From the NCBI RefSeq assembly GCF_003722315.1, contig NZ_CP033580.1, forward strand, positions 1,301,001 through 1,365,000: 64,000 nucleotides of DNA, given 5' to 3'. Positions 29,304 to 43,985 of this stretch are shown one piece after another. A model generated the notes under the pieces. The model was not told the origin of the DNA and ran no database searches. It saw only the letters and a program-made list of their open reading frames with translations. This stretch comes from Thermoanaerobacter ethanolicus JW 200. GTDB taxonomy: Bacteria > Bacillota > Thermoanaerobacteria > Thermoanaerobacterales > Thermoanaerobacteraceae. The position numbers were made by a program, and so were the translations under genes. The first letter of the stretch is position 1, and each line of letters starts with the position of its first letter.

Positions 29304-29430
29304 TTTTTACACCTCGATTTAAAACATCTTCTTATTATCATTATATCATACTTATGCAAATTTAATCTGATTGTTTTTACACAGTCCGAGAACTCGATAT
29401 AAATTGGGAAATATTAGGTGAAAAATGCAT

Positions 29431-29470
29431 TTTCGTTCCCAAAATCGACACTTTCGTTCCAAAATCAACA
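29431..29470 (+). promoter_or_regulatory. Tandem operator-like repeat before the GAF-LuxR gene
   Basis: Two direct copies of TTTCGTTCC(C)AAAATC(G/A)ACA (29431-29450 and 29452-29470) at a 21-bp period, about two helical turns. A TATAAT-like element lies 15-25 bp downstream (29486-29495). This 313-bp intergenic region has no other visible gene. Confidence 0.5.
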
Positions 29471-29615
29471 AATTTTATAAATTAAGTGATATAATATAAA
29501 AAATGGGCGAAAAGTATGTTAAATTTTGCTTTAAGCCCCAAAAATGGTAAAGTTGTTAAGGCACTTGTAAAATCCATAAAAATACAGGGAGTGATAATTA
29601 ATGAGGTGATGATAT

Positions 29616-30389
29616 ATGAAAAAGTTAATATTTAATGAAGTGCTTTATTCTCATAAAAGATGTTTAGAAATGGGACTTAAACAGTCTCTAGATACTCCTT
29701 TGATATTTTTAGAAGAGGAGGAGTTGCGGTTAAAAATAAGAGAAAATAACGAACTCATAGATGTTTTTAGAAAAAACGTTAATAGTATTTTCAAGCAACT
29801 CAAAGAGAGATACGTGTTTTTATTGACCGATACTGATGGGTACCTTTTGGAAATGGTATATGAAAAGAAAATCTATAATAATCTTGATAAATCAGGATTT
29901 AAAATAGGAACTTCTTTTAAGGAAGAGAGCTGTGGTACAAATGCTATTTCATTAGCGATGAGACTGAACCAACTAGTTTATTTAAAACCTGAACAACATT
30001 ATTGCAATATTTTTAAAGAGTGGTATTGCATTGCTATACCTCTTATTATTGATGATGAGATAATAGGATATTTAGATTTATCAACAATAAAAGATAGTAT
30101 GGTTGATGAAATGGTGGTGATTGTGGAATTATTGGCGTATAAGATTGTTAGTGACTATATAAGGATGTTTGGAAATAAAGCAAAGAATAGTAGAGTTAAG
30201 CTTAAAGAAGAACAGCTAAAAGTTCTAAAATTAGTTACGAAAGGATACAAAGATATCGTAATTGCAAAAGAACTTGGAATAAGCATAAATACCGTAAATT
30301 ATCATAAAAGAAATATTTTCAAAAAATTGGATGTTCGGAGTACAAGAGAGGCAATTGCTAAAGCAATTCGAATGGGTTTAATAGAGTAA
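29616..30389 (+). CDS. GAF-domain LuxR-type transcriptional regulator
   Basis: A 257-residue regulator. The N-terminal region contains a GAF-like sensor domain with the motif EESCGTNAISLA, as in AcoR-type activators. The C-terminal helix-turn-helix (LKEEQLKVLKLVTKGYKDIVIAKELGISINTVNYHKRNIFKKL) is typical of LuxR/NarL proteins. No receiver domain is present. It lies at the edge of the bacteriocin-like island and could regulate it, though the two are separated by an IS. ATG 29616 follows GAGGTGATGATAT. Confidence 0.85.
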   Translation: MKKLIFNEVLYSHKRCLEMGLKQSLDTPLIFLEEEELRLKIRENNELIDVFRKNVNSIFKQLKERYVFLLTDTDGYLLEMVYEKKIYNNLDKSGFKIGTSFKEESCGTNAISLAMRLNQLVYLKPEQHYCNIFKEWYCIAIPLIIDDEIIGYLDLSTIKDSMVDEMVVIVELLAYKIVSDYIRMFGNKAKNSRVKLKEEQLKVLKLVTKGYKDIVIAKELGISINTVNYHKRNIFKKLDVRSTREAIAKAIRMGLIE

Positions 30390-30643
30390 ATTGTATTTAT
30401 TACATTTTCTTTAGTTTGAGTTAATGACGGATGTTGTCTTGTTAGGAGAAGGATTTTTAACTATAACAGCATTACTTGATAAAGACTTAGTTTTGTACAA
30501 TATACTTTACCTCCAGGGACTTTATGGCCAACATTTATGTCTGTACAGCAAATTATTTTAACGGAAGAAAGATAAAAATACAACGCAAAACTTATGAGAA
30601 AATTCTAAAACTTTCTCATAAGTTTTGCGTAAATATATAGGGA
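30390..30643 (+). other. Intergenic stretch with a decayed reading frame and a strong hairpin
   Basis: From 30424 a short frame (MTDVVLLGEGFLTITALLDK) runs to an apparent frameshift near 30500, after which another frame continues to about 30573. I do not recognise it. A 19-bp perfect hairpin (30583-30601 / 30612-30630, arm starting ACGCAAAACTTATGAG) follows and probably terminates transcription. Confidence 0.5.
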
Positions 30644-30841
30644 TGTGCAAAATTAATTAAAATAATCATAATCAAAAACCAAAATATGTATTACATACAA
30701 TATATAGTAATCAACACTGACAATCAAACATAAAGGAAGTGGTAAGGGAAAAGAAAAGACAAAAAGAGGAGCTAAAAAAGGGCATAAATATCCTGTAGAA
30801 GTCAAATGTTAAAAAATGGCATGAAATAGATTCAATAAAAA

Positions 30842-32119
30842 TTAGGCCGATTGCATCAAAGCAACAAGAGATCTAAACTCATCATATTTGCCCAATTTAA
30901 TAGCTACAATAGCGACAGTAAGCAAAGTAATATGGCCAAAAGTATTAAGGTTGCTCACAGAATTAATATTTCTAACATAAGCCTTTTCAAAATCCAGAGC
31001 TTTAAAGCGGGAATTATATCTTTCTGATTCAATTCTCAATTTGTAGACGGCCTTAAAATATAGGGAGTCTCTATTAATAGAGGACCTATAATCAGAAGAT
31101 ATAATAGCATACTTAGTACAGCCTCTATGCTTTTTGCCATTAAAATATTTAGGATGATTTATAGGGCAGGCAGAATCATCCTTAGAATTACAGAACTTGC
31201 AAACAAATTTTTGCTTAATAAAACCATCAAAATATTGCTTGCCATCTTTAAGCATTTTAATACCCGCTTCACAGACCATATAACCATCATCAGTCAGAGG
31301 GGGATTTTTAGAATTACGCTTGTTAAGAGGAATAAAGCAATGACCGTGGAGAATATTTCTAACATAATTATAAAGTTTCTTAACATCATAGCCTTTATCA
31401 GCAATAAAATTAACATACTTAAGGTTAAACCACTTATTAGTCTTCTCAAGCAAAGATAAAGCGGCTTCAAAATCAGGGGCATCAGCGGGGGTAGTAGTTT
31501 CAGCGATGGGTAAACCAGAGATAGCATCAACAATAATGTGATTTTTATAGCCCCAATAAAACTTATAGCGTTTATTAGAAGAATCGTTAGAAGCAGAATA
31601 AACGCCTAATTTACAATCCTTATCTGACTTAGGCTGATTATCTTTAGAGAATTTATTTTTAGAAAAAGACTTAGGGTTATTTAACTTAGTGTTAGCTTTA
31701 ATAGGGGTAGAATCCATGGAAATAAACTCACCGGAGATAATACCCATATTTTTGAGGATATTGACCTGATTTTGAAAAATAGAGGTCAAATAATCATGAG
31801 AGAAGTCATTAATAAAACGGCGAAAAGTCCAATAAGAAGGAAGAGGTTTAGAAATGTCGAAGCCACAAAGATGAGCAATGATAAGATTATTGCGGAGATA
31901 ATCTAAAAGGTCAGAAATTGTGCCGAATCTTTCAGCTTTCATGACAATAAAAGCTCTAAAAAGTGCATGGTGAGAATAACCCTTACGGCCAGGACTAGAG
32001 GAAGGGAATTCAGGTATTGAAGACAGGTCAAGATTTTCAAACATAGAAGAATAGAAATCAATTTTAGACTGAGAGGTAAAGAGTTCAGGTATATTTAAAA
32101 GCAATTGAAGCTGGTACAT
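30842..32119 (-). CDS. IS1182-like transposase
   Basis: A 425-residue DDE transposase with an N-terminal DUF772-type region (LPSYWTFRRFINDF), the Asp of FISMDSTPIKANT, the Asp of FIADKGYDVKKLY, and a late Glu in YKLRIESERYNSRFK. A Cys-rich insertion (CKFCNSKDDSACPI) occurs before the Glu, as in IS1182 relatives. Start ATG 32119 follows AAGGAGG and is preferred over 32176. Its start region is within an inverted repeat. Confidence 0.88.
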   Translation of the reverse strand: MYQLQLLLNIPELFTSQSKIDFYSSMFENLDLSSIPEFPSSSPGRKGYSHHALFRAFIVMKAERFGTISDLLDYLRNNLIIAHLCGFDISKPLPSYWTFRRFINDFSHDYLTSIFQNQVNILKNMGIISGEFISMDSTPIKANTKLNNPKSFSKNKFSKDNQPKSDKDCKLGVYSASNDSSNKRYKFYWGYKNHIIVDAISGLPIAETTTPADAPDFEAALSLLEKTNKWFNLKYVNFIADKGYDVKKLYNYVRNILHGHCFIPLNKRNSKNPPLTDDGYMVCEAGIKMLKDGKQYFDGFIKQKFVCKFCNSKDDSACPINHPKYFNGKKHRGCTKYAIISSDYRSSINRDSLYFKAVYKLRIESERYNSRFKALDFEKAYVRNINSVSNLNTFGHITLLTVAIVAIKLGKYDEFRSLVALMQSA

Positions 32120-32197
32120 GTAGAATTTCCTCCTTCTTAAAAAATTTTTTATAGTGTATATATAATAATTCGACAAATGGGAGGGGAAATCCTACAT
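32118..32197 (-). promoter_or_regulatory. Inverted repeat hiding the IS1182-like transposase start
   Basis: ATGTAGAATTTCCTCC (32118-32133, containing the start codon and the GGAGG complement) pairs with 32180-32197 with one mismatch and a 2-base bulge. Confidence 0.65.
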
Positions 32198-32380
32198 AAA
32201 AGATAAAAAATTCAAGAGTGATAGGAAAAAAGTATGTCTGTAGAATGGCTTAAATTAAGGCTTCTGAATTTTGCACAAGTCTATAGAGTAAAAACTTAGA
32301 AGGTGATATAAATGCATAAAAATGAAAGCTAGCCAGTGTTGTTGAGGAAATCAGCTCTAGTTGCATTTTTCTGTAGTTTT

Positions 32381-32598
32381 GATTAAAGAACGTGAAAACT
32401 ACAGAAAAATGTAGTAGACAACGAAAAAAATTTTATGCTAAATTAAAGGCAGGATATAGAAATGGATGTGAGTTTAGGAAAAATCAAGAAAGAAAAGCGA
32501 GTTTCTTACATATATCGTAAGTGATAAAAAATTTGCCATGCATGGCAGGTTAAAATAGATGAAAATCGGCCGATTTGAATTACAAGAGAAAGGAGGAA
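32381..32598 (+). repeat. Bacteriocin leader region, copy 1
   Basis: About 218 bp, nearly identical to 33716-33931. Each copy precedes a double-glycine peptide gene. Features in order: the 3' arm of a hairpin (the full stem, about 17 bp, spans 32364-32411 in this copy), GTAGTAGACAACG, a 20-codon ORF, and AATCGGCCGATTT just before the ribosome-binding site. Confidence 0.8.
32462..32524 (+). CDS. Possible 20-aa leader peptide, copy 1
   Basis: ATG 32462 follows AGGATATAGAA. The frame encodes a 20-residue basic peptide beginning MDVSLGKIKKEKR and ending YIYRK, conserved in the second leader copy with one substitution (Val to Ile). Whether it is translated is unknown. It may be a relic of duplication or a cis-acting leader. 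Confidence 0.4.
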   Translation: MDVSLGKIKKEKRVSYIYRK

Positions 32599-32603
32599 AG
32601 TAG

Positions 32604-32879
32604 ATGGAGGCTGTAATACCAATGAATAAATTTATGGAATTGACAGAAGAAGATTTGATGGTTGTTGACGGCGGTGGACCAATGCTTGCTGCATATCCTG
32701 TTGATTGGAAAGGTTTATATAATGAGGTAGTTGGTGGGTTTCTAGGTGGAGCAGCTGGTGCTATAGCAACTGGTAATATAGAAAAAGCATTGGTATCAGG
32801 AATAGGGGGTGCAGTTGCTGGTGGAGTTAAATATTATGTTAAAAACCCATGGCCAACATACTTTTTCATGATATATTGA
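32604..32879 (+). CDS. Double-glycine leader bacteriocin-like precursor
   Basis: A 91-residue peptide with a classical leader (MELTEEDLMVVDGG, Gly-Gly at residues 23-24) and a Gly/Ala-rich mature region containing GGFLGGAAGAIATGN and GIGGAVAGGVKYYV, which fits class II bacteriocins with GxxxG helix-helix motifs. AAAGGAGG precedes ATG 32604. The leader would be removed and the peptide exported by a C39-peptidase ABC transporter; such a gene lies at 35220 but is broken. Confidence 0.8.
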   Translation: MEAVIPMNKFMELTEEDLMVVDGGGPMLAAYPVDWKGLYNEVVGGFLGGAAGAIATGNIEKALVSGIGGAVAGGVKYYVKNPWPTYFFMIY

Positions 32880-32947
32880 AGCTTTGCTTATAAAATTTTG
32901 TTAAAACTAAATATATCCATAACTATGTTATTTTAATTATATTAAAA

Positions 32948-33008
32948 AACTCCATGTAGTGAGAATAAGTATGAGGGTAATTACGTTAAATTCTCACTAC
33001 ATGGAGTT
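32948..33008 (+). terminator. Strong hairpin after the first bacteriocin-like gene
   Basis: Perfect 19-bp arms (32948-32966, 32990-33008; left arm AACTCCATGTAGTGAGAAT) with a 23-base loop. No T-run follows, so it may protect mRNA rather than only terminate. The rest of 32880-33229 is AT-rich with no gene seen. Confidence 0.65.
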
Positions 33009-33229
33009 ATCATTAAATAAATTAAAAATGTTAGTTGAAAAATATGTAAGTTTTTACTCAAAGATTCTTGCTTAAATTTTTTCTTGTTTTGTTTAGGATA
33101 TTTATAAATAAGATTATGAGAGAAAATTTTTTATTTTGTTTAAGATACATTAAATTATTATTGTAATTTTAATTTTTGATATTATTAAAGGGATAATAAA
33201 AAATAAGTTAAAAAGGGGAATAAAATACT

Positions 33230-33415
33230 ATGAAAAATTTAAGTTATACAAATTCTTTTATTTTTGGTATGATTGTTGGGCTAGTTTCAGCTTTGTTAAC
33301 AGAAAATATGAATTTTTATTCACGATTGATAGTGTCAATATTAGTTGGGTTAAGTATAGGTATTGTGTATAGAATTGTATACAATTTTTATTGGAGGCAA
33401 AAAAAGTCAAAATAA
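33230..33415 (+). CDS. Small membrane protein, possible immunity protein
   Basis: A 61-residue protein beginning MKNLSYTNSFIFGMIVGLVS with two hydrophobic helices and a basic end (YWRQKKSK). AAAAGGGG precedes the ATG. Its size, charge and location between bacteriocin-like precursor genes resemble immunity proteins for class II bacteriocins, but I see no family match. Function is a guess from context. Confidence 0.45.
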   Translation: MKNLSYTNSFIFGMIVGLVSALLTENMNFYSRLIVSILVGLSIGIVYRIVYNFYWRQKKSK

Positions 33416-33440
33416 AAAAGTTAAGTCTATATAATTAAAA

Positions 33441-33558
33441 CTTGAATTCGGCAAGTGAATTTATAAAATACCCAAATAGAGCCATTTGAGGGCTAAATTA
33501 AGCGAAAATTTTTTACAAAGAATATATGGAGATTTCTCTTTTTCCTGATAAAATTTAA
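33441..33558. repeat. Solo end of an IS1380 element
   Basis: Begins CTTGAATTCGGCAAGTG and matches, on the opposite strand and with scattered substitutions, the promoter-side end of the intact IS1380 (12960-13084), including part of the ribosome-binding hairpin arm. No transposase sequence follows. Bases 33559-33715 show nothing recognisable. Confidence 0.8.
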
Positions 33559-33715
33559 TGTTAACTAACCATGCTTAACAAAGCACAACCATGGATGAAA
33601 ATCTATTTTCGCATTAAAATATATGGAAAATAGAGTAATTCCTATAATAGTTAGGAATAGTAAGTACATTGTCTGGAAGGAAAATAAACAATAACCCTAC
33701 ATTTTCTTTAGTTTA

Positions 33716-33931
33716 GATTAAAGGACGTAAAAACTACATAAAAATGTAGTAGACAACGAAAAAAATTTTATGCTAAATTTAAGGTAGGATATAGAAATGG
33801 ATATAAGTTTAGGAAAAATCAAGAAAGAAAAGCGAGTTTCTTACATATATCGTAAGTGATGAAAAATTTGCCATGGATGGCAGGTTAAAATAGATGAAAA
33901 TCGGCCGATTTGAATTACAAAAGAAAGGAAG
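33716..33931 (+). repeat. Bacteriocin leader region, copy 2
   Basis: Near-identical to 32381-32598, upstream of the second precursor gene. The hairpin at the 5' edge is weaker here. The short frame starting MKIGRFELQ, which is closed by a stop in copy 1, runs on in frame into the precursor in this copy. Confidence 0.8.
33797..33859 (+). CDS. Possible 20-aa leader peptide, copy 2
   Basis: Same basic peptide as in copy 1 (MDISLGKIKKEKR... YIYRK), also preceded by AGGATATAGAA. Codons are almost completely conserved, so conservation could be of DNA or RNA rather than protein. Confidence 0.4.
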   Translation: MDISLGKIKKEKRVSYIYRK

Positions 33932-33938
33932 GGAAAAG

Positions 33939-34160
33939 ATGGAAGTTGTAATCAAAAATAGAAATTTTGATTTAGGTAATTTTTCTGAAAGAGGATTACA
34001 AGATATAACATCTGAGCAAGAACTTCAAGAAATAAATGGAGGTGCTTTGCCAATTCTTGCAGTGGCTGGGGCAGTAGCAGCAGTAGGAGGAGTAGTTTAT
34101 CTAGGAATTCAAATTGGTGAATATGTAGGAAAAGCTATTTATTATGCTACACATCCATGA
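33939..34160 (+). CDS. Double-glycine leader bacteriocin-like precursor (two-peptide type)
   Basis: 73 residues with leader ending SEQELQEINGG (Gly-Gly at 34-35) and a 38-residue mature part ALPILAVAGAVAAVGGVV... ending IGEYVGKAIYYATHP. GxxxG-like motifs suggest a helix-helix partner, as in class IIb (two-peptide) bacteriocins; the next gene encodes a likely partner. ATG 33939 follows GGAAGGG and is preferred over the in-frame ATG 33894 that belongs to the repeated leader. Confidence 0.8.
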   Translation: MEVVIKNRNFDLGNFSERGLQDITSEQELQEINGGALPILAVAGAVAAVGGVVYLGIQIGEYVGKAIYYATHP

Positions 34161-34199
34161 TTTAAGCTATAATAAAAGTGAGAGGAGGTATAATAAAAA

Positions 34200-34379
34200 A
34201 TGGAATTAATGAATGTTGTTGGGTTTAATGAAATTTCTGAAAATGAATTGTATGATATTAACGGTGGAATAGCTCCTGTAGTTATAGCAGGTATTATAGT
34301 AGGGGGAGCTTTTGTGATAGGCTTAGGTATAGGAGCTTATGTAGGATATAAAGAAGCAGAAAGAGCAGATAGAAAATAG
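34200..34379 (+). CDS. Double-glycine leader bacteriocin-like precursor, second peptide
   Basis: 59 residues. The leader MELMNVVGFNEISENELYDINGG-type ending (Gly-Gly at 22-23) has the F-x-E-I-S spacing of lactobin/cerein-like precursors. The mature part is IAPVVIAGIIVGGAFV... with IGAYVGYKEAERADRK. It shares the IGxYVG motif with the upstream peptide, and AGGAGG precedes the ATG. Spacing of 39 bp supports a two-peptide bacteriocin operon. Confidence 0.78.
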   Translation: MELMNVVGFNEISENELYDINGGIAPVVIAGIIVGGAFVIGLGIGAYVGYKEAERADRK

Positions 34380-34390
34380 AAAGGTAGCAC

Positions 34391-34437
34391 CTGTCAAGGG
34401 TAAAGGCTTTGTCCCAGCTAGCGCTGGCCCTTGACAG
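34391..34437. repeat. TGTCAAGGG-type hairpin
   Basis: CTGTCAAGGG (34391-34400) pairs with CCCTTGACAG (34428-34437), with an inner CCAGC-TAGC-GCTGG stem. It is related to the hairpin at 5612-5664. Confidence 0.65.
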
Positions 34438-34466
34438 AACCAATAGAAATTATGGAGGTAAAATAA

Positions 34467-34616
34467 ATGGATGGTGTCAATTTTTTGATGGAAAAATTAA
34501 ATAATTTTCCTGTAATTAAGGTTTCTTTGTTATTTATAATAGTTGCTCTTGTAGTATTAATCGGAATAAAAATAGGAGAAATAGTAGGAAAATTTGTATA
34601 TTATATGCTACACTAG
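34467..34616 (+). CDS. Small membrane peptide sharing the IGExVGK motif
   Basis: 49 residues beginning MDGVNFLMEKLNNFPVIKVS with one hydrophobic helix and the end IGIKIGEIVGKFVYYMLH. ATGGAGG precedes ATG 34467. There is no Gly-Gly leader, yet the end closely resembles the mature end of the 33939 peptide (IGEYVGKAIYYATH). It could be a leaderless bacteriocin, or an immunity peptide that mimics the bacteriocin. Unassigned family. Confidence 0.55.
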   Translation: MDGVNFLMEKLNNFPVIKVSLLFIIVALVVLIGIKIGEIVGKFVYYMLH

Positions 34617-34648
34617 ATGTTTTAATAGCACAGTTAGTTGGGAAAGCA

Positions 34649-35059
34649 CAATAATGTGGTGAAAGTATATACTTTCACCACATTATTTCAGTTTGTTGAC
34701 AAAGTTAAAAAATATTCAAAGGAGATATTTTGCATCGTCGCTCCGATGTTCCAAAGCGACAAAACTAAAGCTCGACCTTTGGGCTCCGGCAGGGTACCTA
34801 CGTCAGGTGGCATCCATGCCTTAAGGTGCCCGCCTCCGCCCTCCTTGGCTTCGGCCCTGCCTCCACCCTCGGTCTTGCTAAGTTTCCCGGCACTCAAGTA
34901 AGAAAGTTTATAAAGCAAAAATAGAAAAGACAAGCATACTTACTTGAGTGCCGGGCCGCTTTGTAACAAGTCGCTCCTTATGCAAAATATCTCCTTTACG
35001 AAAGTTTGTCTACAGTCTGCAATAATGTGGTGAAAGTATATACTTTCACCACATTATTT
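34649..35059 (+). mobile_element. Hairpin-targeted foldback element, copy B (331 bp, core 34689-35019)
   Basis: The core runs CAG...CTG, flanked immediately by two identical 40-bp copies of a terminator palindrome (34649-34688 and 35020-35059), each containing the 38-bp perfect palindrome whose half is AATAATGTGGTGAAAGTAT. It carries the AAAGGAGATATTTTGCAT terminal inverted repeats, a GC-rich centre, and a 36-bp loop (34903-34938) between CCCGGCACTCAAGTAAG arms. The overlapping ORFs on both strands are low-complexity and not supported as genes. Confidence 0.88.
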
Positions 35060-35219
35060 AAAAGTTAAGGTAAAGGTATATAGTAGATATGATTAGTAAC
35101 AAGTATTTAGGATTTGCAACATCAAAAATTATGAATTATATAAAGTTTCCTAAAAAAAGAAAAAATAACAAGACAGGTTTACTAATTAAGCTAAATAGAA
35201 GAGTAAAAGGTGAGATATT

Positions 35220-36300
35220 ATGAACATATTTAAGCGCTATGTATGCATTAAACAACATGACATAAAAGATTGTGGTGCTGCTTGTCTTGCGACGATATCG
35301 AAACAGTATGGATTAAAAATACCAATATCGAAAATAAGAGAAGCTGCAGGAACAGATAAACAGGGCACAAGTGCATATGGGTTAATAAAAGCAGCAGAAA
35401 AACTTGGTTTTACAGCTAAAGGAGTTAGAGCAAACAAACCCGAAGATATTTTTAATGAATTTCCGCTTCCTGCAATAGCCCATGTGATTATTGACGGGAG
35501 ATTACTTCATTATGTGGTAATACATAAGATAACAAAAAAAGAATTAATTATTGCTGACCCTGCAAAGGGAATCGTAAGATATACTCCTGAAGAATTTTTT
35601 AAAATATGGACAGGCGTACTCATTCTTATGGTGCCAACGGTTCAATTTAAAAAGGGTGATGAGACGCAAGGACTATTTTCAAGATTCTTTGCATTATTAA
35701 AACCTCAAAAAAGACTGATAGTACACATATTTTTTGTATCCCTAATATTTACTGTCTTAGGAATTATAGGCTCATTTTATTTTAAATTCTTAATGGATTC
35801 TATACTTCCAAATGGATTAGTTAAAACTCTTAATATGCTCTCAATAGGAATTATTGTATTATATATTTTTAAAGTTTTATTAAACGCCTTTAGAACGCAG
35901 TTACTTCTATATTTAAGCCAAAACATTGATATACCATTGATGCTTGGATACTACAACCATGTCATTGAATTGCCTATGAATTTCTTTGATACGCGGAAAG
36001 TAGGAGAAATAATATCTCGTTTTAATGATGCGGCAAGAATAAGGGAGGCTATATCAGGAGCGACGCTTACCATAATGATAGATACATTAATGGTTATAGT
36101 AGGTGGTGCTATATTATACAGTCAAAATCATATGTTATTTGGTATAACTCTTATTCCTGTTGTTTTATATGCTATTATTGTCTGGGTATTTAACAATTCT
36201 TTAAAAAGCATAAATAGAACAATGATGGAAAATAACGCAAAACTAACATCTTATCTTGTAGAATCATTAAACGGGATTGAAACTGTAAAAGCATTCAATG
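35220..36300 (+). pseudogene. Peptidase-C39 bacteriocin ABC exporter, 5' part
   Basis: The N-terminal C39 cysteine peptidase (active-site Cys in HDIKDCGAACLATISKQYG, His in LLHYVVIHKI, Asp in IIADPAKG), which cleaves double-glycine leaders, followed by the ABC membrane domain with SFYFKFLMDSILPNGL, FRTQLLLYLS and PMNFFDTRKVGEIISRFNDA. The frame breaks after GIETVKAFNG, where a group II intron starts at 36301. The nucleotide-binding domain is not in the window. If the intron cannot splice, which seems likely, leader processing and export from this locus are lost. Confidence 0.88.
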
Positions 36301-38285
36301 GTGCGCCACGTTCGGCTATAACTTTATCCTGACAAGATGAAGGAAAAGCCGACATGCCAATAATGGCATGATAACTGACTCACCGAATTCTGGAGGCGAA
36401 ACCCCTCCAGCCGTGCAGAGCTGACATCAATGAAGGCATGTCAAAGCCTGAGATGGCACGAGTGCTAATACTCCTGCATGCATCAACATACTGCTATATG
36501 CTGATGTACGAAGCCAGGTGAAGACGTACCCTGAAAATCCTAAACCATTGTGTGGCATGGATGAGTATAGGGGCGGGCATCCAGTCCCATGGAGACGCAA
36601 GAAAGGCACGCCTGAAGCTCCGTTAGCTTTTGCCGCTGAAAAGCGGAGACGATGGGAATCAAATGCAGTACTCATTGATTACTGCATTTGCATGAGCCTG
36701 AAATGACTCATGATAGCCGGTGAACAACTATAGCTCAAACGCCGGTGTAAATTCCCCGGAGTAGAGTGCCCTCCTAAAGGACGATAAAGGATAGGTGAGT
36801 CGGAACGTGGGAGAGCCTGTATGTGGAATGTAGCAGCATAATGAAACATACAGGAAGTCGGAGGTGTCATAGTAGTAATGACGTACTGTAACATAAACAG
36901 TACAGAACGAAGGACACCAGACGATTAGCTCTGTAATAATTCCCAAACCACCTTGGTAAGTCCCTGAAATATGGGTAACGTACCATGAGAAAGGAGTGAT
37001 GTCTCATGTATATAAACGGCAAGGTGGAAAATGAAACGCAACTCAAAGAAAAGCTAGATTTTATATATGCAAAAAGTAAAGAAGGCAGAAGTTTCCATGG
37101 ACTATGGGAATTAGCATTCAACCCAGTAACGATTGTTACAGCAATACACAATATCAAAAGTAACAAAGGAGCAAAAACTTCTGGTATCGACGAACAAAAC
37201 ATTGACTACTATCTACAACTGCCGTACGAAGAACTGATCGAATTAGTTATCAAAACAGCAAAAAACTATCACCATAAACCAGTCAGAAGAATCTATATAC
37301 CAAAATCAAACGGTAAAATGAGACCATTAGGTATCCCCACAATGCTTGACAGAATAACACAAGAATGTATAAGAATAATAATTGAACCAATAGTAGAAGC
37401 AAAATTTTATCCACACAGCTACGGATTTCGCCCTTACAGAGCAACCAAACATGCCATAGTGCAAATAATAAATTATATAAACTCAGCTAAAAATGATATC
37501 CCTAAATATGTAATTGAAGGAGACATCAGAGGCTGTTTTGATAACATAAACCACCGAATACTACTGCAAAAGTGCTATAGAATAGGAATACACGACAAAA
37601 GAATCCTGGCTCTAATCAAGCAAATGCTCAAAGCAGGCTACATTGAAAATGACCTACACCATTTAACCGAGCTAGGTACTCCTCAAGGAGCTATAATATC
37701 GCCAATACTTGCAAATATCTACCTCAATAACTTTGACTGGACGATTGGAAAAATGTATCAACAACCAGAACAAAAATGTAAGAAAATAGAAAAAGACAGA
37801 GAAAGACTCAAAAGAAGTGGAATACAGCCCAAATACCTAATAAGATATGCAGATGATTGGGTGATAATGACCACAACAGAAAAAGAAGCGCAGAGGCTAC
37901 TAAAATACCTTAAAAAATACTTCAGATACAAACTTAAACTTGAATTATCTGAAGATAAAACAGTAATTACAGATATAACACAGAAACCTATTAAATTTCT
38001 AGGCTTTCTAATAAAAGCAGATTATAAAAGAAAAACTCCCAATGACCCGAAACCAAATAAATTAATAGGAAAATCATACCCAGATCCTGAAAAAGTCAAG
38101 AAACAAATCAAGGAAATCAGTAAAGAAATCCACAAATTAAAAGAAATACCCGAAGATATAGATAAAGCCATACAAATAGAGAAGATTAATACAATGATAA
38201 TCGGAATAGCTGAATACTGGAAAACAAGTATCTGCTCAAACACCTTCAACTATATTGATGATAAAATCAACAAAAGTGCCTTCAT
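36301..38285 (+). mobile_element. Group II intron, 3'-truncated
   Basis: The 5' end GTGCGCC at 36301 fits the group II GUGYG consensus and falls inside a conserved exporter reading frame. A 700-base GC-richer, highly structured non-coding region (domains I-IV) precedes the maturase ORF. No domain V (GAGCC...GGTTC type) or VI was found after the ORF, and the maturase itself ends prematurely, so the 3' part is lost at about 38285. Confidence 0.8.
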
Positions 38286-38340
38286 GTCAATTCTCAAATT
38301 AAATCTCCAAAGATTTTCAAATTATAATGGCATTTTTTAA
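37006..38340 (+). CDS. ltrA: Group II intron reverse transcriptase/maturase, C-terminally truncated
   Basis: RT domains are clear: KMRPLGIPTMLDRITQECIR, the YVIEGDIRGCFDNINH block, GTPQGAIISPILANIYL, and the catalytic YADDWVIM. The maturase (X) domain starts (KINTMIIGIAEYWKTS) but the sequence departs from the family at about residue 425 and ends at 444, against about 600 for full-length LtrA-type proteins. DNA-binding and endonuclease parts are missing. ATG 37006 follows GAAAGGAG. Confidence 0.88.
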   Translation: MYINGKVENETQLKEKLDFIYAKSKEGRSFHGLWELAFNPVTIVTAIHNIKSNKGAKTSGIDEQNIDYYLQLPYEELIELVIKTAKNYHHKPVRRIYIPKSNGKMRPLGIPTMLDRITQECIRIIIEPIVEAKFYPHSYGFRPYRATKHAIVQIINYINSAKNDIPKYVIEGDIRGCFDNINHRILLQKCYRIGIHDKRILALIKQMLKAGYIENDLHHLTELGTPQGAIISPILANIYLNNFDWTIGKMYQQPEQKCKKIEKDRERLKRSGIQPKYLIRYADDWVIMTTTEKEAQRLLKYLKKYFRYKLKLELSEDKTVITDITQKPIKFLGFLIKADYKRKTPNDPKPNKLIGKSYPDPEKVKKQIKEISKEIHKLKEIPEDIDKAIQIEKINTMIIGIAEYWKTSICSNTFNYIDDKINKSAFMSILKLNLQRFSNYNGIF

Positions 38341-38496
38341 GTGCATAAAAGTATTTTTTCTCAAATTATCACAGCCTGATTAAAAATTTTTTTCACTTTT
38401 TAAGAGCATTACCGCCAAAATATGTTAATATCTGTTATTGGCAATTTGAATTAATTGATGTATAATAAAAAATGAGAGTAGCGAAAGCTACTACTC

Positions 38497-39306
38497 TCAC
38501 AAACTGATTTCATTTTGTGCCTGGTATATTACTTCTTCATCTATTTCTCTTAGCCTTTTAGAATACGCATAGAGAAGAGAAGCTGTTACCAGGTTATTTA
38601 TTATCCTTGGGAGCCCTTTTGTTAGAGAATATATTGCTTCATATGCTGATGGTGTAAATATATCATCCACCACTCCGGCTATTTTCATTCTTGTTTTTAT
38701 ATAATCTTGAATTTCTTCTTTTTTTAGCCCTTGCATCACATACTTTATAGAAATTCTTTGCCTTAGTGCACTGTTTACATTCAAGGCTAGTTTGTTTCTT
38801 ATGTGTGGTTGTCCTGAAAGTATCAATATATACGGGTTTTGAGAATCCATATTAAAGTTAAATATTATTCTCAAATCTTCAAGAACATCATTAGAAACCA
38901 GTTGTATTTCATCTAATATTATGACAGGAGTTATCTTCTGGCTATAGTAAAGTTCTGTTATCGCTCTTTGTATCTGGTGAAAGAGCGTTACTTTTTTGTA
39001 TGAGGGTGTTTCGCCTAAAATCATAGCCAATGCTTGATAGAATTCTCTCACTGTGAGTGTAGATAGAGCAAAGTAACATGGTTTAAATGTAGAACGGTTG
39101 AGGCTTTCAGCATATCTTCTTAATGCGGTAGATTTGCCTGAACCGGCCTCCCCAACGATAAGTCCTATACCCCTTGTTTCTTGTAAATATTTTAGCCTGG
39201 CATTTAATTCAGCAATGTCTTCACTTATGTAAAGGTCGTTTACACTTATCTCTTTAGAAAATGGATTAAATTTCATTCCAAAATATTGGGTAAACATTGT
39301 AAACAC
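38497..39306 (-). CDS. AAA+ ATPase of a Mu/Tn7-like transposon (ExeA/TniB-like)
   Basis: 269 residues. The Walker A motif GEAGSGKSTALRR lies near residues 52-64, Walker B in PVIILDEIQLV, and the arginine-sensor region in LSGQPHIRNKLALNVNSALRQRI. The N-terminus FGMKFNPFSKEI is typical of ExeA-like ATPases that act as target selectors with MuA/TniA-type transposases. It belongs functionally to the DDE protein at 41236-42552. AGGGAGG precedes ATG 39306. Confidence 0.88.
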   Translation of the reverse strand: MFTMFTQYFGMKFNPFSKEISVNDLYISEDIAELNARLKYLQETRGIGLIVGEAGSGKSTALRRYAESLNRSTFKPCYFALSTLTVREFYQALAMILGETPSYKKVTLFHQIQRAITELYYSQKITPVIILDEIQLVSNDVLEDLRIIFNFNMDSQNPYILILSGQPHIRNKLALNVNSALRQRISIKYVMQGLKKEEIQDYIKTRMKIAGVVDDIFTPSAYEAIYSLTKGLPRIINNLVTASLLYAYSKRLREIDEEVIYQAQNEISL

Positions 39307-39329
39307 CTCCCTCTATTATCTTTTATTTT

Positions 39330-39815
39330 CTCTTAATATCTTAGTTTTTCTTTAATTTTCTCATCACAACAAGAGCATCTCATGGCTTATATTATCATTT
39401 CTTACTTATCTAACCATTAAATAGGTAAGTTTAATAAACCTCATATCCTATTTCCATATTATGGCGGGATAGCTCCACTTATCTCATGGGGTTTACCCTC
39501 CCATGTCTTACTGGATCTTAGTCCTTAATTCCTTCGTTCTACCTGCCATGAGGTGGATGTCATTTCTGCTCCATTGCAGGGTCTTTGCCCGTATGGTGAT
39601 TATTCTTGTATGACAATTCCCGCTCTTGTTGTCAATATACCATCTTGACTAGTTGTTTTTGTTTTATTCCTTACTTTACCTTTTATGTCACGTCGTTCAC
39701 ACTTTCGTTTTCCCTAAAAATTAATTCTTCTTAAGGGTCAGCTTTTTAGATGTGAGTAATTTAAAGCTGAAGAGAAGATGATTAACCCTTAATTGATTTG
39801 ATAGTATGTTAGCAC
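39330..39815 (-). ncRNA. Candidate bridge/seek RNA region of the IS110 element
   Basis: About 490 bp downstream of the transposase contains no gene but has clear secondary structure. One hairpin is at 39734-39793 (TTAAGGGT and CAGCTTT pairing with AAAGCTG and ACCCTTAA). GC-richer segments at 39470-39600 include GGGATAGCTCC and CATGGGG...CCCATG. IS110/IS1111 elements encode a targeting RNA in such a terminal region. No boundaries can be set. Confidence 0.4.
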
Positions 39816-39818
39816 TTT

Positions 39819-41102
39819 TTATGCAGCTTCCTGTAAGGCTGGCCTCTTTATGTCCTTCATCATCTTGATTGGGTCATATTTTACTCCTTTTTTTAATATG
39901 ACATAAAATACCCTTATCAGTTTGTTGCACAATACTATTAGTGATTGCTTCTTTTTTAGCGGGTTTTGCGCTCTGGTAGTGTAATATTTGTGTAGTTCAC
40001 GAAACTCTTCGTTTTTTGCAACCAAGGCCATTACTGCATTAAATAGTACTCTCCTCAATCGCTTCCTCCCTCTTTTACTTATTGTCGTTTCTCCTTTATG
40101 TTTACCAGAGCTATTCTCTACTAGGTTTAATCCTCCTAGTTTTTGTATCTGTTTTGGATGTTCATATTTCTCAATATCTCCTACTTCTGCAATAAAACCT
40201 GCTACTGTATTTACTCCTATCCCTTTGATTTCTAGTAGTTCTTTAACCCCTGGTATCTCAACTATTAATTCTTCTATCTTCTTCTCTATTTCTTCAATTT
40301 GTTTTTTGAGAAATTCGTATTGTTCAATGAGAGTCTTTATCTCGTATTCCGCCATCTTTATGCCCTGCTTCTTCCCTATGCTCTCCTTAGCAGTTTCTAT
40401 CAGCTTTATAGCCCTTTTTTCTCCTACCCCTCTTTGTACTTCTTTCTTCCATATCGATATTATTTCTTCAGCACTCTTTTTTGCTATCTTCTCAGGCGTT
40501 GGAAATTCTCTTAATGTGATAAGTGCTGCTTTCCCTTCCCAGTCTGAAAATACGGTGTTAAACTCCGGAAAGTATATGTCCATCCATCTTGTTATTTGAT
40601 TTTTTGTCATCCCTATTTGTTTGTTCAACCTGTCTTTTATGTCCATCGCTACCCTTAATTCTGCATATACTCCTTCAGGTATTGTCGGCTCTACATATCT
40701 CCCATCTTTTACTAGCATTGCTATTGTTTTTGGGTCTTTTTTATCGCTTTTTGTGGGAGAATTGTCATCTAATTCTTTGCTCCTCTTTACATGAAATGGA
40801 TTAACCAATACTACCTTTATGTTATTGTCTTTAAGGTATTGGGCAAAACATAGCCAATATTGCCCTGTCGGTTCTATCCCTACTATTAGTTTGTTTTTCT
40901 TATGTCTCTCCATCAACTCTTTTGCCCATCTAAAAAATTTTGTCATACCTTCTCTATTGTTTTCAAATCTTAGGTATTTCCCATATTCTACTCCTCTGTA
41001 GTCAAATGCTCTGGCATAATGGCTTTCTTTTGCTATGTCTACTCCCGCAATTAATGTGTCTTCTGTTACTTGCAAAATCTTTTCATTTTGTGTATACTTC
41101 AT
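39819..41102 (-). CDS. IS110-family DEDD transposase
   Basis: 427 residues. The N-terminal RuvC-like domain shows AGVDIAKESHYARAF (Asp), LIVGIEPTGQYW (Glu) and TKSDKKDPKTIAML (two Asp). The C-terminal Tnp domain has the helix-hairpin region ELLEIKGIGVNTVAGFIAEVGDIEKYEHPKQIQKLGGLNLVENSSG with the catalytic Ser. The protein looks complete. The ATG at 41102 is preceded by AGGAGG, which is hidden in an inverted repeat. Confidence 0.95.
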   Translation of the reverse strand: MKYTQNEKILQVTEDTLIAGVDIAKESHYARAFDYRGVEYGKYLRFENNREGMTKFFRWAKELMERHKKNKLIVGIEPTGQYWLCFAQYLKDNNIKVVLVNPFHVKRSKELDDNSPTKSDKKDPKTIAMLVKDGRYVEPTIPEGVYAELRVAMDIKDRLNKQIGMTKNQITRWMDIYFPEFNTVFSDWEGKAALITLREFPTPEKIAKKSAEEIISIWKKEVQRGVGEKRAIKLIETAKESIGKKQGIKMAEYEIKTLIEQYEFLKKQIEEIEKKIEELIVEIPGVKELLEIKGIGVNTVAGFIAEVGDIEKYEHPKQIQKLGGLNLVENSSGKHKGETTISKRGRKRLRRVLFNAVMALVAKNEEFRELHKYYTTRAQNPLKKKQSLIVLCNKLIRVFYVILKKGVKYDPIKMMKDIKRPALQEAA

Positions 41103-41107
41103 TTTAG

Positions 41108-41178
41108 GTACCTCCTGTTTATTTTGATAATTCGAGGTAAGTTCTAGAACTTACACTCTGTATTTTATCAGGAGGTAC
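41108..41178 (-). promoter_or_regulatory. Inverted repeat hiding the IS110 transposase ribosome-binding site
   Basis: GTACCTCCTG (41108-41117) pairs with 41169-41178; the first arm is the complement of the Shine-Dalgarno. Within the loop is a perfect 18-bp palindrome GTAAGTTCTAGAACTTAC (41137-41154). Confidence 0.65.
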
Positions 41179-41235
41179 TTATTTTTTCAAAGTTCATTCT
41201 TCCTTATTTTTTATTCATTACAGGAATGCTCTTTT

Positions 41236-42552
41236 TTAATCAATGATATCGTTAAAGGATATCACTGTGTGTTTAATAAAATCAACTAACTCTTCATTTC
41301 TACTTACAGCATTTTTGTTTTGGGTGTATCCTATGGGAATTTTAGCATTATCATGAAAATTTACCTTATACGCTTCCCCCACTTTTTTGCCTTCATGAAA
41401 AAGTAGAAGAGGTGTATTATCCTTAAGCCACTGCGGGTCATATCTGACTTCTAAGCGCATACCTTTAAACTTTTCTTCTGTTTCATAAAGTATATTTTCC
41501 ACTTTAAGTGTAGCATCTTTGTTTACTTTACGATTTACTCTTATGAGAAAACATTCATTCAACATATCTATGTCTTTACACATATTTACCCTTGATATTT
41601 GAGACATGAAAAAATCTAAAGGACTCATGCCAATACTGCTGTGTTCTTTTCGGTTGTAATCATCCTCCAGCCATTTAAAAAACATCATATTGAGCTCATC
41701 TATACTCTTTATGGATGTAGGATCTATTGTGCTTAAAAATCTCATTCTCACCGTATGAAAGAATCTTTCTATTTTTCCTTTTGAATGAGGTGAAAAGGGC
41801 TCAGCATGAATAAGAGATGTACCTAGTGAGGCACAGATATACTCCAATTGAGTGCTTCTATATATCTTTCCATTGTCAGTGTAGAGCATTTTGGGTATTC
41901 CCCTTCTTAGCACTGCTTCTTTAAATGAGTCTCTTAAAGCTAAAAAATTCTGGGTATAGTAAAAGTGAGCATAGGTACACAGCCTGGAAGCATCATCTAT
42001 ATATGCAATAAGGTACGTTTGTCTCTTTGTTTTACCTTCTTTAATATATGGCCCATACATGACATCAGTCTGCCACAGTTCATTGATGAATTCATGGGAA
42101 AACCTCTTTGTTTTACCCTCTTTTTCTTTATCTAAAGATTTTACAGGAATGTTTTTCAAAAACCTATAGAATGTCGAAAGGGATACTTTATCCGGTGATA
42201 TTATTCCTTCTCCTATCAATGTCTCATAAAGAAGTTTGTTTGGCATTTCAGGATGTTCAAGCTTCTTTTGCTTTATTCTCTCTGAAAGTTCAAAGTCTAT
42301 CTTTCTGTATTTGCCTCTGTCGCTTCGATAACCCGGCTTTAACGCTTCTATACCGCCTCTTAAATACTGATATAGCCACCCTCTAAGTGTCTTGGGAGTA
42401 TATCTTCTCATTCCAAGATAAGGTATCTCAATAGGTTTATCGGAAAGAGCATCAAAATATTCTTTCTGATTTTTTACCTGTCCGTTTAGCACCGGACTTA
42501 TCAGTGAAAATCTCTTTAATGCTATAGCTTCTCTTGCTTTTTCATCAAGCAT
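41236..42552 (-). CDS. Mu/Tn7-like DDE transposase (TniA-like)
   Basis: 438 residues: N-terminal helix-turn-helix domains, a DDE integrase core with Asp in LWQTDVMYGPY, Asp in MLYTDNGKIY and Glu in SKGKIERFFHTVR, then a C-terminal beta-barrel-like region (LEVRYDPQWLKDNTPLLLFHEGKKVGEAYKV) as in MuA/TniA proteins. Presence of a separate ATPase gene and a DUF6431 gene supports assignment to a multi-gene transposon rather than a simple IS. The GGGGG ribosome-binding site may be partly paired with an upstream CCCCC (42611-42615). Confidence 0.88.
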   Translation of the reverse strand: MLDEKAREAIALKRFSLISPVLNGQVKNQKEYFDALSDKPIEIPYLGMRRYTPKTLRGWLYQYLRGGIEALKPGYRSDRGKYRKIDFELSERIKQKKLEHPEMPNKLLYETLIGEGIISPDKVSLSTFYRFLKNIPVKSLDKEKEGKTKRFSHEFINELWQTDVMYGPYIKEGKTKRQTYLIAYIDDASRLCTYAHFYYTQNFLALRDSFKEAVLRRGIPKMLYTDNGKIYRSTQLEYICASLGTSLIHAEPFSPHSKGKIERFFHTVRMRFLSTIDPTSIKSIDELNMMFFKWLEDDYNRKEHSSIGMSPLDFFMSQISRVNMCKDIDMLNECFLIRVNRKVNKDATLKVENILYETEEKFKGMRLEVRYDPQWLKDNTPLLLFHEGKKVGEAYKVNFHDNAKIPIGYTQNKNAVSRNEELVDFIKHTVISFNDIID

Positions 42553-42688
42553 TTATATGTTCCCCCTTCACTTTTTTGATTTCTTAATCGTAATTTTAGC
42601 TCATACCTGGGGGACATTAAAGGAAAAAGTTATGTTGCTAAGAAAAAATCAAAATTTTTATTTAAATCTTTCAGGTTTAATGCTAAAA

Positions 42689-43270
42689 TTATGTGAGAGA
42701 GGCCAGAAATGATTTTTGGCAATGAGCATAAAACCGTTGGGAGAAGAGTGGTACAATGCTTATTATGTCCAAAATCTCTCTGGCCCTCTCTCTTTGTGAG
42801 TCAGTCTTAGATAACTTTATGTAAGGGTTTATTTGCCTTAATCCGTATATGATAAAACTTAAATTATTCATTATCCTTTTGGTGTAAAAATATATATGCT
42901 GTCTTGAAAATAGTATGGTAGGGAAGTTTCTTTTTAAGTCACTTATGAAAGAACTGAGAGTTTTTTCTCTGAGAAGTGTCTCTTTTAAAGACTTTACAAT
43001 CATATTGAAAGAATACTGAAAATGAGGAATACAGAAATCAGGAAGGTAGGAAAGAGTCCTTTTGCACACAGGGCATATATATCTTCTTATGGCTATTTTT
43101 ACACAGTTAAGTCCGTCTAAATAATAGCGGTAATAAAACCCGTGCTTTTTTAGTTTTACTCTACACTTGCAATCGGGATAAGGACATCTATCTGGTGGGG
43201 CAGGGAAATTGTAATCTTTACCTTTATGTAAATATTCTTCAATGTTATCAACATGGAAAACTATTTGCAT
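42689..43270 (-). CDS. DUF6431-type zinc-finger protein of the transposon
   Basis: 194 residues starting MQIVFHVDNIEEYLHKGKDY. Two Cys pairs (CPYPDCKC and YICPVCKRTLSYLPDFCIPHF) form a likely zinc ribbon, as in DUF6431 proteins that accompany such transposases. A helical C-terminal region follows. It probably recognises DNA ends or regulates transposition. Start ATG 43270 follows GGAGAGG. A 15-bp inverted repeat (43293-43307 / 43326-43340) lies just upstream, between the gene and the element end. Confidence 0.75.
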   Translation of the reverse strand: MQIVFHVDNIEEYLHKGKDYNFPAPPDRCPYPDCKCRVKLKKHGFYYRYYLDGLNCVKIAIRRYICPVCKRTLSYLPDFCIPHFQYSFNMIVKSLKETLLREKTLSSFISDLKRNFPTILFSRQHIYFYTKRIMNNLSFIIYGLRQINPYIKLSKTDSQRERAREILDIISIVPLFSQRFYAHCQKSFLASLT

Positions 43271-43414
43271 AAGTAACCTCTCCAATTAAAACTAATGCTA
43301 AAGGAATCTGAAAAAAATTTATCAAATTCCTTTAGCATTAATTTTATCACAAGATTATTTAATCTGAAAAATTTTATCGGTTTTGGGCTGAATTAATTTG
43401 AGAAATGACAAAAA

Positions 43415-43783
43415 GGTTCTGAAGGAGCGGAAAGATTAGGAGCCATAGAAGGCCAAGTTCAGCATAACATAGCAAGACGTATGAAACGGCTTGGAGCTAG
43501 GTGGACAGAAGAAGGTGGAGACAGGATGAGTAGGATATTATCAGAAAAAGCGAATGGCAGATTAGAAGACTATACAATGCAGTGGCATTTAAAACAAGAA
43601 GAAATAAAAAAGATAATGCAGCCGACAAAGCAGGAGAAAAAAAGAAAATACGCGGAAGAAGACATAGAAGAATGGTTAAGAGTTTCATTACCGATACTGA
43701 AAGGTCCAGTTGCGAGCAAGCCATGGATAAAATACGTTTTAAAGGAATTAACACGAGCAAATGGATTAGCAGTAGGTATTTGA
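43415..43783 (+). pseudogene. ISLre2-family transposase, C-terminal fragment
   Basis: The frame from 43415 reads GSEGAERLGAIEGQVQHNIA... MKRLGARWTEEGGDRMSRIL, matching the conserved C-terminal block of ISLre2 (UPF0236) transposases. There is no start codon with a ribosome-binding site and most of the protein is missing. The preceding bases are the end of the Mu-like element, and in-frame sequence left of that element (about 38300-38351) could be the upstream continuation. Confidence 0.75.
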
Positions 43784-43985
43784 GGAGTAAACAATTCTAG
43801 TATATATTTTACATTAAAAAAGCAAAAAAGAAAGCGGATATTTATGATTTGTTGAAGTAATAATTTAACATAATTAGCAATATATATAAACTACTAATTT
43901 TAAACTCCTAGATTTTTAACGGTGAGGTCAGTTATAAAAATTTTTTACCTACAAAATCTTGACACAGACTTATGGAAATTGGCTG
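43784..43985. other. AT-rich intergenic DNA without a recognised gene
   Basis: No ORF with a credible ribosome-binding site and no strong hairpin; only poly-A/T runs. Confidence 0.6.

Follow-up and report, generated by a model that had tools for sequence, protein, structure and literature searches.

A short membrane protein of 49 amino acids (34467–34616, forward strand), encoded directly downstream of a probable two-peptide bacteriocin gene pair and resembling the mature form of one of the two peptides, BacB, is quite likely to be an immunity protein, by whatever mechanism it acts. The window analyzed here is a 64-kb stretch out of a complete 2.91-Mb Thermoanaerobacter genome. An immunity role had been proposed in the first-pass annotation, and it is in accord with the cassette position of the gene, its orphan copies, and a size and transmembrane (TM) layout like those of known small class IIb immunity proteins.

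The bacteriocin genes are located in an island (29377–43982, not strand-specific) that has a BFN/DUF151-like gene on one side and the valS T-box leader on the other. Because the genomes G002 (same species) and G004 are without this 14.6-kb insert and have its flanks joined, with homology ending at 29376 and restarting at 43983, the insert is regarded as strain-variable; the same site in G003, G005, and G010 is occupied by bacteriocin genes. The Rfam search of the island gave only the T-box and a group II intron, the remaining matches being far below gathering scores. A GAF and LuxR-type regulator (29616–30389, forward strand; Pfam GerE and GAF) inside the island is a possible regulator of the cassettes; its close orthologues (85–91%) are confined to G005 and G010, each of which has arrays at the same locus. 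The ORFs of the bacteriocin cluster lie at the positions given below, and a Shine-Dalgarno-like sequence precedes each of them. The bacteriocin-like island of the first-pass annotation is real, and its ORF positions and the family membership of the peptides were confirmed; the pair and the 49-aa gene were correctly listed there, but it had been missed that bacA has a partner gene for a 61-aa protein, that the exporter gene, slightly beyond the range given there, is broken, where the island begins and ends, and that relatives have cassette arrays.

The pair consists of bacB (33939–34160, forward strand; 73 aa, mature 38 aa, zipper G21-G25-G29) and bacC (34200–34379, forward strand; 59 aa, mature 36 aa, zipper G18-G22-G26). 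Their products score 25.0 and 37.6 bits, respectively, against TIGR03949 of NCBIfam, the lactobin A/cerein 7B family of class IIb bacteriocins, and both are over its curated cut-off of 21.5 bits, in support of the two-peptide pair recognized earlier. The Gly-Gly leaders and IGxYVG motifs reported for the two peptides were also seen: the leaders end in EINGG (BacB) and DINGG (BacC), which are double-glycine leaders, the motifs read IGEYVG and IGAYVG, respectively, and a GxxxG motif is present in both mature peptides. Class IIb peptides have GxxxG motifs, through which helices are known to make contact, and they form pores (PMC8538875). As judged from sequence features, BacB and BacC are a probable two-peptide (class IIb) bacteriocin. 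Two adjacent double-glycine precursors with GxxxG motifs, a small membrane protein after the pair, and, in relatives, a C39-ABC exporter and an HlyD-like gene are shared with the lactobin A/cerein 7B family, whereas the thermophilic anaerobic host, the exporter broken in this strain, and a putative immunity protein resembling one peptide are differences from it. The sequence search of BacB against PDB gave chance-level matches only, and our literature search, which was not exhaustive, yielded no publication about class II bacteriocins of Thermoanaerobacter. In G003 and G005, bacB (the copies at L049 and L051) is a pseudogene in which one and the same GGA-to-TGA substitution replaces the first Gly codon of the cleavage site by a stop codon; the sequence after it is undamaged, as are bacC and the 49-aa gene.

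The 49-aa product had been described as leaderless with an end like that of BacB. This holds for the C-terminal ends (IGEIVGKFVYYMLH in the 49-aa product, which has no leader, and IGEYVGKAIYYATHP in BacB), but the likeness is not of the end only, as it spans 35 of the 38 mature residues. Residues 3–37 of mature BacB align without gaps to residues 15–49 of the 49-mer, with 16 of 35 identical (46%), and the local BLOSUM62 score of 78 (z = 12.4, compared with z = 3.2 for the 49-mer and BacC) was reached by none of 5000 shuffles, also when the hydrophobic/polar pattern was kept, which argues against a convergence of glycine-containing TM helices. In the ranking of the 441 window ORFs, the 49-mer came first, followed by scores of 52 (BacC) and 36, and when the complete 2.9-Mb genome was searched with a profile built from the 49-aa family, only the 49-mer itself and BacB (E 9.4e-5) were matched. 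The GxxxGxxxG zipper, at G33-G37-G41 in the 49-mer, is in register across BacB, BacC, and the 49-mer; small residues in the N-terminal half number 8 of 17 in BacB versus 2 of 17 in the 49-mer. At the DNA level, the aligned stretch is identical at 58/105 positions, which does not exceed what is expected from the protein similarity (P = 0.30). The likeness therefore does not come from recent copying of DNA, and a recent duplication of the end of bacB was rejected.

The 49-mer has a strongly hydrophobic TM stretch and is not clearly cationic (four K+R, three D+E), and its topology is ambiguous when judged by charge. AlphaFold2 predicted a short helix at residues 2–12 and a single long helix at 15–48, with a mean pLDDT of 88. 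No Pfam or NCBIfam family was found for the protein, and a profile search of PDB gave no match. After the gene comes a terminator-like hairpin (34650–34687, forward strand) with a 17-bp stem and a T-rich tail. In 34650–35060 of the window, a 38-bp palindrome is present on either side of some 330 bp with inverted-repeat ends, an arrangement that resembles a small mobile element and suggests an insertion between the 49-aa and exporter genes.

Arrays of bacteriocin-immunity cassettes are found in related genomes, at L110, L111, and L052 in G001, L112 in G014, and L049 and L113 in G003. In the arrays of G001, G014, G003, and G010, membrane proteins follow the bacteriocin gene or genes, and some of them are CPBP/Rce1-like (Abi-type), a type already known among class IIb immunity proteins (PMC6957408). 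In the present cassette, the place held in these arrays by membrane-protein genes is taken by the 49-aa gene, for which immunity is accordingly the most likely function. In G003 and G005, an exporter fragment comes directly after the 49-aa gene.

The likeness to the neighboring peptide is specific to this cassette. When 28 bacteriocin peptides were paired with the immunity candidates of their own cassettes, cognate pairs other than BacB and the 49-mer gave z values of −0.9 to 3.0, except one at 6.8, while 746 non-cognate pairs gave a mean z of 0.36 (sd 1.14, maximum 6.3); for cassette G001_13a (z −0.6) the default leader cut was used, and the conclusion is unaffected. The pair at 6.8, from G014, was rejected as a mimic because the match is short, Gly-rich, and located within an M48 peptidase. 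Mimicry as a general property of cassettes was also rejected, as only BacB and the 49-mer stand out and no other pair of the related arrays gives a convincing match.

Copies of the gene are also found apart from bacteriocins. Solitary copies of the 49-aa family are present at two further sites in G003 and at one in G083 (a different family), where the orphan (L136, 9721–9873) encodes 50 aa and lies beside a transposase at the end of a long CRISPR array. The family had no match in IMG/VR or plasmids, and a GTDB contig scan gave only Thermoanaerobacter sp. A7A, whose contig is part of the same-genus genome G005. Seven genomes from a different genus of the same class, a genus we take to be Caldicellulosiruptor, have diverged 48-aa relatives that stand alone, and in three of these seven no C39 exporter match was detected. 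The 48-aa orphans at L087, L089, and L090 are near two-component systems and genes for FtsX-type or DrrA/SagH-like ABC transporters, and these neighborhoods are possibly antimicrobial-peptide resistance modules. Where compared, the 48-aa orphans gave pN/pS of about 0.3, the value for G005b versus the window being excluded because of a misaligned frame; the Thermoanaerobacter copies are too alike for selection on the protein to be seen, and in the G083 copy constraint seems to be relaxed.

Since the 48-aa relatives have no neighboring bacteriocin, the family may have an unrelated membrane role. As a small membrane protein, the 49-mer would then serve in housekeeping or stress and resemble BacB by convergence, and the relatives near two-component and ABC-transporter genes in the other genus, under purifying selection and without a bacteriocin, fit this. 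We consider it improbable, in view of the gapless alignment described above and because BacB has more residues in common with its linked 49-mer than with the orphans: of the 15 positions at which both sampled 48-aa orphans depart from the 49-mer, BacB agrees with the 49-mer at 7 and with an orphan at 3. These counts weakly suggest that BacB and its linked 49-mer are matched as a pair.

The first-pass annotation had also suggested that the 49-mer might itself be active, as a third bacteriocin peptide without a leader. The protein does share shortness and lack of a leader with leaderless bacteriocins, is bacteriocin-like, and adjoins the pair, but it is not clearly cationic, its TM stretch is strongly hydrophobic, and no dedicated operon for leaderless export was seen nearby. 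Because intact relatives of it also occur without the pair and in genomes with no detected C39 exporter, a third exported peptide is disfavored, and we give this role very little weight.

For immunity, we propose the following mechanism. The bacB, bacC, and 34467 genes would form one three-gene unit read as a single transcript, and the 49-aa protein would be a membrane-resident relative of BacB, in which an amphipathic N-terminal helix may take the place of the cleavable leader, a bulky hydrophobic TM stretch may replace the glycine/alanine-rich N-terminal half of BacB, and the C-terminal GxxxGxxxG zipper with its flanking charges and tyrosines would be retained. In the membrane of the producer, this zipper would pair with incoming BacC (or BacB), and the resulting dead-end heterodimers, unable to assemble a pore, would protect the cell. 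Mixed helices of the 49-mer with the bacteriocin peptides are plausible because the three share the in-register zipper, and we put the chances of immunity through such unproductive pairing at about even. A broader reading, in which the immunity protein shares ancestry with a bacteriocin peptide, acts in a dominant-negative manner through the zipper, and spreads as an orphan in a cassette-exchange system, is held more tentatively, at somewhat below even chances.

The 49-mer might also be an immunity protein that works otherwise, e.g., by shielding a receptor of the target cell, with the likeness to BacB reflecting shared ancestry or the receptor. Receptor-linked immunity has been proposed for class IIb bacteriocins (PMC8538875; PMC6957408), and the cassette position and orphan copies fit it as well. 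AbpIM, a characterized class IIb immunity protein of 55 aa, showed no mimicry of the Abp118 peptides (p 0.42–0.87) and thus, unlike the 49-mer, does not resemble its own peptides, which also fits receptor shielding and means that immunity of this kind can do without mimicry. Receptor shielding alone, however, leaves the BacB-specific likeness and the kept zipper unexplained, and we regard it as rather unlikely.

Production of the bacteriocin by this strain is another matter. The C39-type exporter linked to the pair is truncated here: only the 5′ part of a peptidase-containing ABC exporter gene is present (35220–36301, forward strand), with the C39 domain (Peptidase_C39, 143 bits) and a partial TM domain (ABC_membrane, 135.6 bits), while the ATPase half is missing. 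The fragment aligns with residues 1–364 of an intact 740-aa protein. A group II intron (36302–38340, forward strand; maturase at 37006–38340) lies inside the exporter gene, with group_II_RT_mat at 319.7 bits and Rfam group-II-D1D4-5 at 36370–36587; Rfam gave no match to domain V, the 3′ end of the intron was not found and has apparently been lost, and insertion sequences come next. The missing 3′ half of the exporter gene was sought in the rest of the genome without a close match, the best candidates (38–41% identity) being other ABC transporters, and the broken gene is the sole C39 peptidase over the family cut-off in this genome. The exporter is intact beside the arrays in G003, G005, G010, G001, and G014, and in the first three of these the 740-aa exporters and HlyD-like genes are beside valS. 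Because the dedicated exporter is broken, bacteriocin production by the usual route is unlikely in this strain; from the gene structure, production has probably ceased, which may leave immunity as the sole function.

A third double-glycine bacteriocin beside the bacB/bacC pair is predicted at bacA (32604–32879, forward strand), a class II precursor of 91 aa that matches Pfam Bacteriocin_IIc at E 1.4e-5 and 25.4 bits, slightly below the cut-off of 27.1. It is followed by a gene for a 61-aa membrane protein (33230–33415, forward strand), and the two genes together have a 98% identical counterpart in contig 13 of G005. As membrane proteins of 62–67 aa also come after the BacA-type toxins of L051 and L111, the 61-aa protein is the probable immunity protein of BacA. 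Upstream repeats of about 250 bp precede bacA (32367–32617, forward strand, with a promoter-like site at 32415, short palindromes, and an RBS) and bacB (33702–33952, forward strand), and are 93% identical across 253 aligned bases. The palindromes TGCCATGCATGGCA and AATCGGCCGATT in these repeats could be operator sites. A regulatory motif was also sought by aligning the upstream regions of multiple cassettes, and none was definable as the alignment was too ragged.

Many of the cassettes of G001, G014, and G003 end in 5′ exporter-gene fragments, many of which stop near nt 233–245, and in G001 and G014 a sequence common to the cassettes comes after these fragments. Since cassettes are 92–96% identical between genera and exporter genes only 76–79%, the cassettes move independently of the exporter, and the pattern looks like cassette exchange between thermophile genera by homologous recombination at conserved flanks. 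Immunity genes kept without the toxin are also known from the type VI orphan immunity arrays of Vibrio cholerae, in which displaced modules accumulate through homologous recombination (PMC5361080); the arrays found here differ from these in being complete bacteriocin-immunity cassettes that end in 5′ exporter fragments. In G027 (L114–L119), many C39 exporter genes, several of them broken, were observed within about 80 kb and at a second site.

Class IIb immunity proteins of only 42–55 aa have been described (CbnZ 42, EnkIaz 52, BrcI 53, and AbpIM 55), and CbnZ, with one TM helix and a gene directly downstream of cbnXY, raised resistance 250-fold (PMC6957408). Because small single-TM immunity proteins are established, the kind of gene found here is already known; the 49-mer is like them in size, in being a small membrane protein, and in the adjoining of its gene to those of the peptides. 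AbpIM, the one of these four that was compared, has no sequence similarity to the 49-mer (p 0.42). Such proteins reportedly share little similarity among themselves (PMC6957408), and since they differ so widely, similarity to a characterized member is not a defining feature. A report of an immunity protein resembling its own bacteriocin was not found in our search, which covered part of the literature.

The mechanism of class IIb immunity was still called a mystery in 2019 (PMC6957408). If true, the proposed mechanism offers a testable answer to how these immunity proteins work, and, given the resemblance to BacB, the dominant-negative model could be put to the test with a few point mutants of a single protein of 49 residues. 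The arrays suggest how thermophiles switch bacteriocin types around one fixed exporter, and the orphan copies in non-producers would, if the model is true, predict protected strains.
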